A stretch of 38,658 bases of DNA, taken from contig JAAFIL010000032.1 of assembly GCA_013297775.1 (NCBI GenBank), positions 1-38,658 on the forward strand, given 5' to 3'. This DNA is from Bacteroidota bacterium. Lineage in GTDB: Bacteria; Bacteroidota; Bacteroidia; B-17B0; Aurantibacillaceae. The notes beneath the pieces were generated by a model. That model saw nothing but the letters and a program-made list of their open reading frames with translations, made no database searches and was not told the origin of the DNA. Below are positions 2,950-38,530 of this stretch, piece by piece. Positions within the stretch are counted from its first letter, which is position 1. The number at the start of each line of letters is the position of its first letter. The position numbers and the translations under genes are program-made.

Positions 2950-3438
2950 ATGTCTAAGCCAATTATTAAGATTACTATAACTCTTTTATGTATTACTTTT
3001 TTTAGTTGTAAATATATTGAAGATGACTTGCCAGATATAATTACAAATGAAATAAATGGTAAATATTTATATAAATATCCGACTGGGCAAATTGAAGTGA
3101 TGTATGTAAATAATGACTCTACTTTTCACCAAGAATTTTTTATGAGTGAGAAAGAATATTTAGACAAAGCAACTCCGATATTTAAAAATACTGGCAAATG
3201 GTCTATATCAGGCAAAGATATTGGTTTCAATGATTTATTAGTGTGTAGTGATTTTGGTGTAGATTTCGATACTTTAAAAAATAAACCCCACTTATCAAGT
3301 TTTTCAGATGCGTGTTGGCGTAAACCCAAATACAATCGTAAAGATTATAAATTATATTTTTATTTTGAAAACGGTTATGTATTTACTAAGCAAAAAGATA
3401 GTATTCCGATTTATCATGATAGGAATAGTCGTTGGTAA
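2950..3438 (+). CDS. lipoprotein, candidate immunity protein of the orphan RHS tip
   Basis: This 162-residue protein has an N-terminal hydrophobic stretch ending in a lipobox (ITFFSC, Cys about 20), so it should be lipidated and envelope-anchored. The body contains GKYLYKYPTGQIEVMYVNND and NTGKWSISGKDIGFNDL, giving a lipocalin-like beta pattern, but I cannot assign a family. Its ATG lies 3 bases after the stop of the orphan RHS tip, so the two are probably translationally coupled. Toxin-then-immunity order makes it the best immunity candidate for that tip. The lipoprotein call is confident; the immunity role is inferred from position only. Confidence 0.65.
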   Translation: MSKPIIKITITLLCITFFSCKYIEDDLPDIITNEINGKYLYKYPTGQIEVMYVNNDSTFHQEFFMSEKEYLDKATPIFKNTGKWSISGKDIGFNDLLVCSDFGVDFDTLKNKPHLSSFSDACWRKPKYNRKDYKLYFYFENGYVFTKQKDSIPIYHDRNSRW

Positions 3439-3649
3439 TGTACCACTAAATAAAAACTATAATAATGGGAAAAGAATATTTTAAAAGGCTAGACGCTTTA
3501 TAAGGCTAGACGTAAGCCTCCGATCACCTCTTATAAAAAGGGTACGGCTATTCGTTAGATATATATGTTAAAATATAAAATAATTAGAGACCACCACTAT
3601 GCCTCAATCGAAAAAGTGCTTGTTTTGTTGGGCTTTCATCTCTCATTAC

Positions 3650-3926
3650 GATTCCTATTGCATAATTCCATCTAATACCAAAAGCAGATATATTTTAGTC
3701 CAATCTTTTGATAAAAATTGGTGTTATTTTCGTTGCTAATTTTCGACGTAGCTGCCTGCTACGCCTGTAATTACCGCCTCAATCCCACCAATTTTTATTG
3801 GCAAAATCTTTGGACTAAAATATATTTGCATTCGGTATAACTCATTTTTTAAATATTGATTTTAAATAGTTTACAGAGTTAGCTACTTTATTCTAAAGTG
3901 TCCGATTTCTTTAAATCTCGGTTAAA
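3650..3926 (-). repeat. R1 dispersed repeat, copy A (interrupted)
   Basis: On the minus strand this reads like copies at 10877, 23018, 37457 and 38468: an AACCGAGATTT start, the core CTTTAGAATAAA, then AGCTAACTCTG and a GAGTTA block. The tail matches the 37545-37567 region (GGAATTATGCAATAGGAATC). The copy is broken at 3676-3837 by the MITE-like insertion. Confidence 0.75.
3676..3837. mobile_element. MITE-like element, 162 bp, TAA target duplication
   Basis: The ends are inverted repeats of about 28 bp. The left end begins TACCAAAAGCAGATATATTT; the right end, read on the other strand, begins TACCGAATGCAAATATATTT, and both continue into TAGTCCAA. Partial pairing continues inward (ATAAAAATTGGTG at the left, CACCAATTTTTAT at the right), and the centre has a CGTAGC/GCTACG hairpin at 3747-3763, so the whole element can fold back. 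It is flanked by TAA at 3673-3675 and 3838-3840. The uninterrupted R1 copy at 37539-37549 shows the empty site with a single TTA/TAA. It encodes no protein. Three-base duplications of this kind fit the IS5/IS1031-like group, but that link is inference. Confidence 0.8.
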
Positions 3927-4135
3927 TAAAAGCCGCATTTTTTTGAGGCAATTGCTGCAATCTTATAATATTGAAAATTCAGAAACTACTGAAAATTTAA
4001 AATAATTTTTATGCCTAAGGTTCAATAGGTTTTGATTTAGCGTTAACTACTAGTTCTCTGCAATTGCTAGTTTACTTAACCAATATAATTTACTTTTGAA
4101 TTTATCGAACTTAATGAAACTATTTATTAAGTTGA

Positions 4136-4167
4136 TTTGTAAACGACTTTATGTTAAACCTAATTTG
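4136..4167 (+). promoter_or_regulatory. possible Bacteroidota-type promoter of the EEP gene
   Basis: TTTG at 4136-4139 and TAATTTG at 4161-4167 lie 21 bases apart and just upstream of the ATG at 4176. They resemble the -33 TTTG and -7 TAnnTTTG boxes of Bacteroidota, but the -7 box is one base short of consensus and the implied leader would be very short. Confidence 0.3.
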
Positions 4168-4175
4168 AAATTACT

Positions 4176-5591
4176 ATGACTGAAACTTTAAAAATTGTTA
4201 GTTGGAATGTGAGGAACACGCATTACGATTTTGGAAGCGTACCTACGACAAAAGTAACGAATCTTCGAGAACATTTACCAAGACCACATTTAGCATTTGA
4301 TTATATAATTAAGTGTATAATTAAATGGGAGGCAGATGTTGTATTTTTAATCGAAGCACCAAAACAAGCAATAGCTTTAACATTTTACTTAGAAAACGAC
4401 TACTTAAATAGGAGAGAAAAAGAAATGAACCTAGGAAAGGAATCAAATTGGTATGTTTTTGATTCGAGTACATCCGAGAATAATAAAGTTACGAATTTGC
4501 ATGAATCATATATTATACTTTGTAGAAAGGATTTGTGGAAAGATTATGAGGAGGCTATGAGTAAAATAAAAAGTTTTGGTCCTCAGTTTCACGAAATAAA
4601 CATGGGAAGTGAAAGAAAACCAGATAAAAAACTACTTGAAATTAGGAAGAGCGTATTTTTTGAAATGAACTTCTCAAACTTCAAAATGGGACTATGCTGC
4701 CTTCATGCACCGCCTCCAAAAAGTTTGAATACGAAGTATAGAATAGAAATTTTGAATCAATATTTTCAATCCTTAGAACAAGTTTTCTTGAAAGAAAATT
4801 ATGATTGTATTTTATTTTTTGGTGATCTAAATCTTCAAGAAGATGAAGGAGATAATCATAAATCAAATCCAAAAAATCCTTTAAAACTGGAAAAATTTAC
4901 ATTAGCAGCCGAACAACCAAAGGTAACCGTTTATGGAATCAATGAGGTTTGGAAAGGTGAAAATCCAAAAGATACAAGCACATATGACAGGTTCTACATA
5001 TGCATTAACTCATCAAAAAGGGACAAAATCAAATATCCGTCCTTGGGCTATGAAGTTTTAGACTTAGTCAAAGAATTTTTACCGATACAGAACGCAATTA
5101 ACATAGCTAAAGAGAAAATTAGTAATGCAGTTGAATCTTTAATCGAGAATCAAAAAAAAATAAATCCTGATGCAATTGACGAAGAATATGATACAAATAG
5201 ATTAACTGCTGAATTTCGACAAAGTAGAAAAAATATTGAAAAGTATTATTCTGGTGATGAGTTTAGAAATAGATTCGATAAACTTAATACAATTTATGAA
5301 AGTCACGAAAAAAGAAATCAACTAATTCAAAAAAATAAAAATCTCAAAACCAGTAGTAATAATCGAGACTCGAAAAAAAATCTAGCCGCATTTAAACAGT
5401 CGTTAGTTGAGGCTGAAAATATTAATCAAAAACTTAATTCCTTAAGTATGTTTTTTAATCCTATCCTAATGCCAAAATGCACTTACAGTGATTCGATTTC
5501 CGATCATGCACCAATATCGCTTACACTAAATATAAGTTATGAAAGCCTTAAGATTCAACAACAGCAAATGAATCCATCCACTTTCAAATAG
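4176..5591 (+). CDS. endonuclease/exonuclease/phosphatase (EEP) superfamily protein, cytoplasmic
   Basis: All the usual EEP motifs are present in order: LKIVSWNVRN at the N-terminus (metal/substrate Asn), DVVFLIEAP (metal-binding Glu, about residue 59), LCCLHAPPP, FFGDLNLQ (the GDxN motif, about residue 216) and SISDHAPISL near residue 448 (catalytic Asp-His). The enzyme should hydrolyse phosphodiester or phosphomonoester bonds using divalent metal. At 471 residues it is longer than most family members. The extra length is a charged Lys/Asn/Glu-rich, probably coiled-coil insert at about 300-425, placed between the core and the SDH motif. No signal peptide is visible, so it should act in the cytoplasm. 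It ends 34 bases before the 1615-residue gene on the same strand, and the two probably form one transcript. The true substrate is unknown. Confidence 0.85.
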   Translation: MTETLKIVSWNVRNTHYDFGSVPTTKVTNLREHLPRPHLAFDYIIKCIIKWEADVVFLIEAPKQAIALTFYLENDYLNRREKEMNLGKESNWYVFDSSTSENNKVTNLHESYIILCRKDLWKDYEEAMSKIKSFGPQFHEINMGSERKPDKKLLEIRKSVFFEMNFSNFKMGLCCLHAPPPKSLNTKYRIEILNQYFQSLEQVFLKENYDCILFFGDLNLQEDEGDNHKSNPKNPLKLEKFTLAAEQPKVTVYGINEVWKGENPKDTSTYDRFYICINSSKRDKIKYPSLGYEVLDLVKEFLPIQNAINIAKEKISNAVESLIENQKKINPDAIDEEYDTNRLTAEFRQSRKNIEKYYSGDEFRNRFDKLNTIYESHEKRNQLIQKNKNLKTSSNNRDSKKNLAAFKQSLVEAENINQKLNSLSMFFNPILMPKCTYSDSISDHAPISLTLNISYESLKIQQQQMNPSTFK

Positions 5592-10693: not shown

Positions 10694-10876
10694 TGCTTAA
10701 TTCTGAAAATATTTTTTCTTGAAATATGAGATGGCTGCAAGCTAAAAACCATTCATAACAGGGGTTTCATAAAGTTCTATTTTTTATTAGAAGCGCTACA
10801 AGCCAGTAAAATCGTTTTCCATATCTTAAAAAAACATTTAAAATTCAGTAGAAATCCTTGCAGCGGTCTCATTAGA

Positions 10877-11023
10877 TTTAACCGAGATTTTAAGAAATCG
10901 GTCACTTTAGAATAAAATAGCTAACTCTGCAAAATGTTTAAAATCAAAATTTGAAAATGAGTTAGGGGGAGATAGACCGTCGAAATCTATCACAAAACAA
11001 AACCTGCCACAGTGATTAGAAAT
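10877..11023 (+). repeat. R1 dispersed repeat, copy B
   Basis: It matches copy D (37457-37604) over its full length: TTTAACCGAGATTT, CTTTAGAATAAAATAGCTAA, TTTAAAATCAA, ATGAGTTAG, then AAATCTATCACAAAACAA, CTGC and TTAGAAAT. Near its start, ACCGAGATTT and AAATCGGT can pair as a stem. Confidence 0.8.
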
Positions 11024-15279: not shown

Positions 15280-16111
15280 ATTATAAAAAATTTACTTTCC
15301 TACTCTTTGGCGTTTCGGATTAAGCCCCCGCTATTACCATGCGGGCTTGGTCGTTTTTAAGAGGTTATTAAGCCTTTTGCTAATGGGTTCTGCTCCATAA
15401 AACAAAATTAAATTAATGGGTTTGCGTTTGTAAGAATAGAAATACCTGTTTTAGAAAAACAGATATAAACACTTGGTTTTGGGGTGGTAAGTTTAATAAA
15501 TGTGAATAAAGTTTCCATTCTATAGAAGCATCATAAATTTCTTTTTCTAACTAATGAGGTATTTCAGATTAGAATTTAGAAATTAAAAAATTATCTCTTT
15601 CAAAGCTGTAATTAGGTTTTGGGCGTGCCCCCTTTAGAGTATATACATGGCTTAGTGTATTATTTACACTTTAAGTTTTACTTTAATTAATGTTATTCTT
15701 GGGGTCGGGCTTTACGCTTTAGCCGCTCGGTCTTTTGCTACACCTGCTGCTGCGTGCGGGGGTGTTCGTGCCTCCGCCTCCGCCGCTCGCGCAGTTGTTC
15801 GCAAAAGCCCTTTGCGGGCTGCCGCTTCATTTGTATTGAGCGAAGCCGAAATAATCCCTCACGCAGGGCTGTTACAGAATTTATGTTGAGTGAAGCCGAA
15901 ATAATCCCTCACGCAGGAGGTTAAATTATAAAACACCTAGGTAATTTTTTAATTCTATCCGCTCAATCAACAACATTAGCAACATGAATAATACCTAAAG
16001 CAAATATATTTTATTCTAAAGATGCTCTTTCTTGAAATTTGATATAAATGAATTACTATAAAATTAGGCAATAGTTATCTGATAGAATTTTATGAAGTAA
16101 ACAATGTGCTT
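15280..16111. other. gene-free spacer containing R2 copy a
   Basis: No gene is supported. A bulged stem (AAGCCCCCGC with GCGGGCTT, 15322-15348) lies in the 5' leader of the 712-aa gene. A GC-rich R2 repeat covers about 15617-15917. The rest is AT-rich; no terminator is evident after selD. Confidence 0.55.
15617..15917 (+). repeat. R2 dispersed repeat, copy a, with duplicated 3' end
   Basis: It opens with TTTTGGGCGTGCCCC and ends with AATCCCTCACGCAGG, like copies at 27917 and 34984. The interior has the GGTCGGGCTTTACGC segment and a GC-rich middle. The end module (TATTGAGCGAAGCCGAAATA through CCCTCACGCAGG) is present twice, at about 15830-15866 and 15879-15917. Confidence 0.75.
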
Positions 16112-22972: not shown

Positions 22973-23017
22973 ATGTTAAATATCTCATAATAGTACTCCT
23001 TCATTTTCCATTGCCTA

Positions 23018-23109
23018 TTTAACCACAATTTCAAGAAATTGGGTACTTTAGAATAAAATAGCTAATTCTGTAAAACACTTAAAAACAGTACTTAAAAATA
23101 AATTAGATG
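23018..23109 (+). repeat. R1 dispersed repeat, copy C
   Basis: It reads TTTAACCACAATTTCAAG, then ACTTTAGAATAAAATAGCTA, ATTCTGTAAAA and a degraded AAATTAGATG end. The stem bases differ from copy B yet still pair (CAATTT with AAATTG). It lies between the convergent purD and dprA ends. Confidence 0.75.
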
Positions 23110-23123
23110 AAAATACTTGAAGT

Positions 23124-27861: not shown

Positions 27862-28262
27862 CCTAGATCGCAATAACAAGTTTTATCAATAAACTTTAAT
27901 CCCACCTACTTACTATTTTTTGGGCGTACCCCTTATCCATCTCTAGTGTTGGTGTGTAGGCATTCGCATATCATGTAATTAAAATATAAACTTAAAATGG
28001 AAGTCGAGGTCGGGCTATCGGCTTTCGCCAATGCGGCTTTGGCGGCTTTTGTTGCGGCTGCGGTGGCTTCTAAAGTCGCCTCCTCGCTCGCACAAAACCA
28101 CGCCAACGCCTACATTGGGCTGCCACCGAATTTATATTGAGCGAAGTCGAAATATCCCTCACGCAAAAAGAGTTCGCTTAAAATTTAAGAAATACTTACT
28201 CGAAATTGGAGTTTAAATATTAATAGCACCTTACCAATGCCTATACACTCACATACCTTTGG
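27862..28262. other. convergent spacer filled by R2 copy b
   Basis: The 401-base gap separates the convergent EEP and aldehyde dehydrogenase genes. R2 copy b occupies about 27917-28174. Nothing else was recognised; no clear terminator is visible. Confidence 0.5.
27917..28174 (+). repeat. R2 dispersed repeat, copy b
   Basis: It begins TTTTTGGGCGTACCCC and ends ATATCCCTCACGCAAAAAGA. Its core GGTCGGGCTATCGGCTTT and AATGCGGCTTTGGCGGCTTT is almost identical to copy c read on the minus strand. Small open frames within it are artefacts of GC-rich repeat sequence. Confidence 0.8.
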
Positions 28263-37387: not shown

Positions 37388-37456
37388 GTATTATGGCATT
37401 GTTGATACCTGTTCGATAAGCTTGACTGAATTTAAGCCAAATTCAAATTTATCTAA

Positions 37457-37604
37457 TTTAACCGTAATTTCAAGAGAGAAGTTCTTTAGAATAAAATGGC
37501 TAACTCTGTAAAAATCTTAAAATCAATATTAAAAAAATGAGTTAGATGGAATTATGCAATAGGAATCTATTACAAAACAAGATCTGCGGCAGTTGTTAGA
37601 AATA
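37457..37604 (+). repeat. R1 dispersed repeat, copy D (uninterrupted)
   Basis: It is the best full copy: TTTAACCGTAATTTCAAG, TTCTTTAGAATAAAATGG, CTAACTCTGTAAAA, AAATCAATATTAAAAAAATG, AGTTAGATGGAATTATGCAA, TAGGAATCTATTACAAAACA, AGATCTGCGGCAGTTGTTAG. It preserves the empty site (TTA at 37542-37544) of the MITE insertion seen in copy A. Confidence 0.8.
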
Positions 37605-37896: not shown

Positions 37897-38472
37897 ATGA
37901 CTACACTTGAAAATACTAATACACCTGAACAAAATTCTCTTGCAACTGAACAAAATAATTTAGAGCAAGAAAATTTGGCCGCAATGGATAAAATGCGCGT
38001 GTTTTTTAAAGGCTTGAAAGATTATTTGCAAAATAGCAATATTGAAAAAGAAAGTTTAGATGATTTTATAGAGGGCATAACTATTTTAGAAACAACTTAC
38101 GAAAAACGTTTGAGTAAATGGAAAACGGCTCTCCATTATCAAAAACTACATTTCCAGAAAGAGTTAGAGCGGCAGCCAGCCAAGTTAGAACATAAAGAAC
38201 TTAACTTACAAGAAAAAATAAAACAATTGGAAGAAAAGAGTGCAGGACAAAAGGAACACATTAAACAGCTTACCAAAAATTTAACAGAGTTAAAGCAAAA
38301 AGTAAATCAATTAAAAACCGAAGCGGCTATTAAAGACGAAGCTGCGAATACCGCCGAAGGTGTTGCTAAGGCTTATAAACGCTACGAGCAGCTATATTTT
38401 GATTTAAAAGCGAAGCTTGAAAATTCAGCTCCAAAAACACCGCTCACTTCGTTTTGGAAAAAGAAAAATTAA
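37897..38472 (+). CDS. coiled-coil protein of unknown function
   Basis: The 191-residue protein has no signal peptide or membrane segment. The N-terminal third is Asn/Gln/Glu-rich (ENTNTPEQNSLATEQNNLEQ) and is followed by a helical part with DDFIEGITILETTYEKRLSK. About 110-155 is a heptad-rich coiled coil (NLQEKIKQLEEKSAGQKEHI, LTELKQKVNQLKTE). The C-terminus is short and basic (TSFWKKKN). I do not recognise a family; a structural or bridging role in the cytoplasm is likely. The stop codon overlaps the start of R1 copy E. Confidence 0.75.
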   Translation: MTTLENTNTPEQNSLATEQNNLEQENLAAMDKMRVFFKGLKDYLQNSNIEKESLDDFIEGITILETTYEKRLSKWKTALHYQKLHFQKELERQPAKLEHKELNLQEKIKQLEEKSAGQKEHIKQLTKNLTELKQKVNQLKTEAAIKDEAANTAEGVAKAYKRYEQLYFDLKAKLENSAPKTPLTSFWKKKN

Positions 38473-38530
38473 ACGGAGATTTCAAAAAAGAATTTCTTTA
38501 GAATAAAATTTATAACTCGGTTAAATAATA
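38468..38530 (+). repeat. R1 dispersed repeat, copy E (5' part)
   Basis: It reads TTAAACGGAGATTTCAAAAA, then TTTCTTTAGAATAAAATT and TATAACTCGGTTAAATAA. It begins within the stop codon of the coiled-coil gene, and the 3' half of R1 is absent. Divergence from the other copies is higher. Confidence 0.6.

Follow-up and report, generated by a model that had tools for sequence, protein, structure and literature searches.

How does a 162-bp stretch of DNA that carries no transposase gene come to lie inside a copy of another repeat, and which enzyme would have put it there? The question is raised by an element in the window, by which we mean the whole stretch of DNA that was analysed (38,658 nucleotides; contig JAAFIL010000032.1 of the Bacteroidota bacterium assembly GCA_013297775.1).

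A foldback element interrupts one copy of the R1 repeat

The element (MITE-1, short form) occupies positions 3676-3837 of the forward strand, as established by direct reading, by alignment and by the seven copies of the 162-bp form in the genome, which are 95-100% identical. It starts with TACC, ends with GGTA and has TAA on either side (3673-3675 and 3838-3840). The left terminal inverted repeat, TACCAAAAGCAGATATATTTTAGTCCAA (3676-3703, forward strand), and the right one, TACCGAATGCAAATATATTTTAGTCCAA (3810-3837, reverse strand), are identical at 25 of 28 positions, and no open reading frame of 100 or more amino acids overlaps the element. The inverted ends are part of a foldback that extends over the full length: the RNA fold reaches -57 kcal/mol (z -9.05) and the DNA fold a z of -8.83, and in neither case did any of 200 shuffles do as well.

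The element sits in copy A of R1, which is itself an abundant repeat (in the window at 3590-3930, 10876-10990, 23017-23115, 37455-37600 and 38467-38525, and also in locus L103 from about 1647). Copy A lies on the reverse strand and is divided into a left portion (3590-3675) and a right portion (3841-3930), both with approximate outer limits; the 26 bp adjoining the element on the left are identical to R1 copy D, and the right portion is 81% identical to it over 90 bp. The filled site (3668-3847) reads CCATC TAA [TACC...GGTA, 162 bp] TAA CTCATTT, whereas copy D, read as its reverse complement, gives CCATC TAA CTCATTTTTT. This uninterrupted 29-mer (37533-37561, reverse strand) has its target triplet at 37542-37544, inside the interval 37539-37549 that the preliminary description had put forward as the same site in its empty state. 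The 29-mer occurs 61 times in the genome at up to three mismatches (33 times exactly, copy D included) and its reversed-pattern control 0 times, and the filled site is 165 bp longer (162 + 3) than the uninterrupted ones. These empty sites are paralogous, being other copies of R1, as opposed to an orthologous locus in a sister strain. The window element is confirmed as a MITE inserted into R1 with duplication of TAA, in agreement with the preliminary description, which had reported a 162-bp element with inverted ends of about 28 bp, a TAA duplication and a location in R1 copy A.

The strong foldback (z about -9) also invites a different reading, namely that the element is a hairpin repeat (REP- or BIME-like, a structured RNA or a terminator) that recombination has spread or a function has preserved. 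The surroundings of the copies would suit it: when the flanks were joined across 24 sites, of which L029 ends inside the element and leaves 23 informative, 21 had no open reading frame of at least 80 amino acids across the junction, L008 and L031 having frames of 105 and 108 amino acids. What speaks for insertion instead are the precise 3-bp duplications and the uninterrupted R1 copies. In addition, a search of window positions 3400-4200 against Rfam, up to an E-value of 1, gave no match, and a structured RNA family was rejected for that reason. We consider the hairpin-repeat reading most unlikely, and it is possible that a function was gained after insertion.

Two MITE families share their ends in the genome

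To place the element in its genomic setting we surveyed the draft genome (4.35 Mb in 128 contigs). A 22-base end pattern allowing up to three mismatches matched 42 times, compared with two matches for the reversed control. Besides the 162-bp form, MITE-1 has longer variants of about 194-197 bp, in which the central segment differs. A second family comprises forms of 159, 183 and 218 bp that have their ends in common with MITE-1 and a different interior; four of its copies lie at contig ends (C70, C19, C87 and C20). Two 162-bp copies (on C37 and C68) have a first-family body that bears on one side an end typical of the second family (GAACTT); a common enzyme and recombination between the families would lead one to expect this. 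The window element is short, non-coding and bounded by terminal inverted repeats, and its kind is present in multiple dispersed copies with target duplications, as in MITEs generally. The preliminary description had called for a search of the genome for other copies and for insertion sequences with related ends, their absence counting against it; that search found copies as well as IS pieces with related ends.

The MITEs duplicate a TAA or TTA triplet

The flanks of the copies were compared next to their ends, as placed by likeness. Automatic pairing of ends gave 31 pairs, which were cut to 22, and one copy (L020) was added by hand, for a total of 23 across both families. Identical 3-bp flanks, each TAA or TTA, bound 21 of these 23 copies, a figure to be read with the nine dropped pairings in mind, all of which lacked an identical triplet. 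The latter consist of two that join a true end to a chance end (L005 and L155), two that looked unrelated (L044 and L045) and five on four decayed relics (the second pair of L006, L019 twice, the second pair of L023, and L038). The four relics have no placeable ends; counted as failures, they bring the result to 21 of 27. Random dealing of the right-hand triplets produced a mean of 9.8 matches, and none of 20,000 deals reached 21. Seven of ten end pairs at MITE distance in relatives likewise show an identical TWA triplet (L058, L061, L070, L073, L077, one pair in L083, and L084); L060, L065 and the other pair in L083 do not. At one of these loci, in another species (G036, L058 1197-1523), TTA flanks both sides of an element of 327 bp that has TACC...GGTA ends and is probably one more MITE of this type.

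The duplication could be parsed as a classical 2-bp TA, with the third base representing a target preference or a part of the element; IS630 biochemistry is TA-based in the system described in PMC2170065, and the MITE's own ends start with TA. Against this stand the uninterrupted R1 site, which reads ATC-TAA-CTC and differs from the filled site by 162 + 3 bp, and the occurrence of both TAA/TAA and TTA/TTA for the same orientation of the element: under a 2-bp duplication an additional base would have to be assumed, at the left end of some copies and the right end of others. We regard the 2-bp parsing as improbable and refer below to a 3-bp TWA duplication.

IS630 elements of relatives carry like ends and the same duplication

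Both ends of the window MITE resemble the left end of an IS630 element present in five copies in a relative (genome G014), the left at 24 and the right at 25 of 28 positions, while the other IS ends compared reach 17-22. For scale, 825 TACC sites within 98 kb of the genome were scored against the left end, and 691 of them reach 8-14; the 98 kb are loci chosen around such ends and hence include real ones. The sharing of ends with an autonomous element, a further attribute of MITEs, is seen with the element of a relative, of whose kind the own genome has fragments only.

In G014 this kind of end opens the five-copy element, which has an open reading frame of helix-turn-helix type and is cut by contig ends. 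A complete IS630 element of 1162 bp was found in the same genome (L093:1421-2582), and has two overlapping frames. The product of orfB scores 115.6 bits with the NCBIfam model of the IS630 family (NF033545, cut-off 100) and 68.3 with Pfam DDE_3 (cut-off 28.6); orfA alone reaches 57.1 with NF033545, and its scores with helix-turn-helix models are likewise below the cut-offs. In L093, L095 and L121 a TTTTAAAAAAA run marks the overlap of the two frames and orfB is read in the -1 frame, an arrangement that suggests programmed frameshifting. The spacing between the last D and the E is 31 residues (DD31E) in 10 of the 11 loci scanned, L125 having given no value.

Of the 12 IS630 copies for which both ends were found, 10 have the same TWA triplet on either side, the exceptions being L127 and L125. 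The triplet is TTA for L093, L121 and the degenerate L128, and TAA for L095. In genome G377 four of five elements have matching triplets (L122, L130, L135 and L139, but not L127), as do two of three (L098 and L134, but not L125) in a group that is more distant and has TACTAAACCG ends. This last group came to light through a generic inverted-repeat scan near IS630 genes, after which its ends were read directly; for L093 and L130 the scan did not rank the true ends on top, and it was used as a lead to that group only.

The left end of these elements (L053, L069 and L076 in G014, and L093) additionally contains an inner inverted repeat, TAGTCCAA...TTGGACTA, so that a single IS630 end is already like a foldback element.

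A TNA duplication is typical of the IS1031 group, and the TAA or TTA found here conforms to it. The preliminary description had named an IS5/IS1031-type enzyme as the probable driver, in which case the likeness to IS630 ends would be coincidental or shared; the description of IS630 and ISY100 as duplicating TA (PMC2170065) would favor such an assignment. The transposase genes found between such ends are of the IS630 family, though, the elements that encode them bear the same TWA duplication, and the MITE ends match an IS630 end at 24-25 of 28 positions. Judged from the elements found with such ends, an IS5-family driver is very unlikely, and the MITE is better attributed to an IS630 lineage whose target is 3 bp long. 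The other part of the earlier proposal, mobility without a transposase of its own, fares better: the element has no transposase, it was inserted, and its anatomy fits movement in trans.

Remnants of the IS630 lineage and distribution of the MITEs

The genome that contains the window has IS630 debris at C104:129-536 and C91:3674-3837 (the latter interrupted by an R1 copy), both with the end TACCAAGGTGATTTAATTTTTAGTCCAA, and a further decayed stretch on C40. Only 19-20 of 28 positions agree between these broken ends and the window MITE, the better match being that in another species. No intact IS630 transposase was found in the draft genome, where Pfam DDE_3 identified two fragments and a search with orfB three partial matches. 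Complete like-ended IS630 elements were found in relatives, and only broken pieces in this genome. A DNA search of the genome with the IS630 element recovered the genome's own fragments and no MITE copy, so the interior of the MITE is not a demonstrated deletion derivative.

On C104 the IS630 gene fragment (L096 1-130) is joined to unrelated sequence that resembles the end of another insertion sequence. On C91 the R1 copy inside the IS630 fragment reads CCGAGATT and AATCTCGG at its two ends; these ends and its position within the fragment make R1 look mobile as well.

Among 40 genomes of the genus, blastn gave matches to the MITE in five, the own genome included. Elsewhere in this set near full-length matches were confined to G028 (up to 82% identical), and the other matches are short stretches at or near the MITE ends. 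Relatives of orfB are present in 6 of the 40 genus genomes (E 0.001) and in 10 of 395 genomes of the class (E 1e-20), both counts including the own genome. Neither G028, which has the nearest MITE copies outside the genome, nor G008, which has MITE-type ends, gave a match to orfB or orfA. An exact end pattern was found in six stretches of named genome records, each with the title MAG: Bacteroidetes bacterium, and in none of the viral contigs searched. The 162 bp had no blastn match to plasmids or phages. Plasmids have relatives of orfB in 572 records, each below 60% identity, and six peptide patterns found none in viral contigs.

Proposed mechanism and precedents

Taken together, we conclude that the window element is very probably a non-autonomous MITE moved by the IS630-family DDE transposase of another element, with a 3-bp stagger at TWA. 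In the mechanism that we propose, an IS630-family (Tc1/mariner-like) transposase encoded elsewhere would recognise the TACCAAA...TTTAGTCCAA ends, move the MITE in trans, presumably by cut-and-paste, and join it at a TWA triplet with the 3-bp stagger that leaves TAA or TTA duplicated. The driver itself may now be lost, broken or unassembled in this genome. Movement in trans appears well supported by the anatomy of the element. The MITE can be described as RUP-like, and an IS630 variant with a 3-bp target is its likely driver lineage.

A duplication of 3 bp has parallels in PIF/Harbinger and in IS1031. Along these lines, we think it probable that an IS630 lineage in the class of this genome (Bacteroidota) shifted from TA to a 3-bp TWA target, in parallel to Fot, PIF/Harbinger and IS1031, and seeded several MITE families with recombining ends. 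No bacterial IS630 element with a 3-bp TWA duplication was apparent in the literature titles and openings of abstracts surveyed, which is weak evidence of absence.

Cardinium belongs to the phylum Bacteroidota. Its MITECca01, of about 240 bp, is described with ends that match a resident insertion sequence, as here in kind, but the parent is of the IS982 family and has intact copies in that genome (PMC9769881). Among bacterial MITEs with IS630-type ends, the closest precedent that we found is RUP of Streptococcus pneumoniae, which is described as a 107-bp MITE linked to IS630-Spn1, with a listed terminal inverted repeat of 9 bp and insertion at TA (PMC2229807). On that description, both elements are small and gene-free, lie between genes and in mobile or repeated DNA, have IS630-like ends and would move in trans. 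The window MITE differs in being longer (162 bp, with still longer variants), in its Bacteroidota host, in its 28-bp ends set within a full-length foldback and in its 3-bp TWA duplication, so that it lacks the TA insertion of RUP just as the like-ended IS630 elements lack the 2-bp TA duplication of their family. Correia/NEMIS elements of Neisseria, given as about 107 and 155 bp (PMC2229807), are similar in that they have inverted ends, a target duplication and a short and a long form set apart by an internal segment; host and sequence are different, and the forms here measure 162 and about 195 bp.

As for the enzyme, IS630/Tc1-mariner transposases are described as users of TA, in one statement for the whole group (PMC8533490; PMC2170065). 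In one assay of ISY100 in vitro, 34 of 39 products had TA duplicated (PMC2170065). As described there, ISY100 shares an IS630-type DDE transposase, an N-terminal helix-turn-helix region and inverted ends with the elements studied here; it duplicates TA and has one transposase gene, in contrast to TWA in 10 of 12 copies and the two overlapping frames of L093, L095 and L121. Eukaryotic departures from TA are on record in this group: Sailor elements are reported with mostly TATA duplications (PMC8533490), and the Fot elements of the pogo superfamily with TAA in most cases (PMC7386202). Fot thus offers a Tc1/mariner-group lineage with a 3-bp TAA, likened here by the description of its duplication and differing in its eukaryotic hosts.

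The MITE is in itself an ordinary kind of element; what deserves pursuit is the length of the driver's duplication. If a bacterial lineage does duplicate TWA, it would offer a way to ask which residues of the transposase determine stagger and target, with the MITEs as natural substrates. Annotators should not take a TWA duplication by itself to mean IS5/IS1031.

Interiors and junctions of the MITEs

The long forms of both families (L015, L016, L020, L023 and L032) have a similar central module around TATTTRAGCCAGTTTGTG, which suggests that interiors have been exchanged between the families. A MITE-type end directly abuts R1-type TTTTATTCTAAA at two or more places in the genome: in the window at 15992-16023 (forward strand), where sequence matches identify a lone relic end, TACCTAAAGCAAATATATTTTATTC, preceded by TAA and joined to R1-like sequence, and in L036 (C40:211 onwards). 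Such a junction is possibly a hybrid of the two repeats. Finally, the motif TTGAGCGAAGCCGAA recurs in the D4 repeats of the window (15816-15915 and 28117-28166), and a related form, CTTCGACTACGCTCAG (as the reverse complement), is found inside MITE-2 (L032 and L034).
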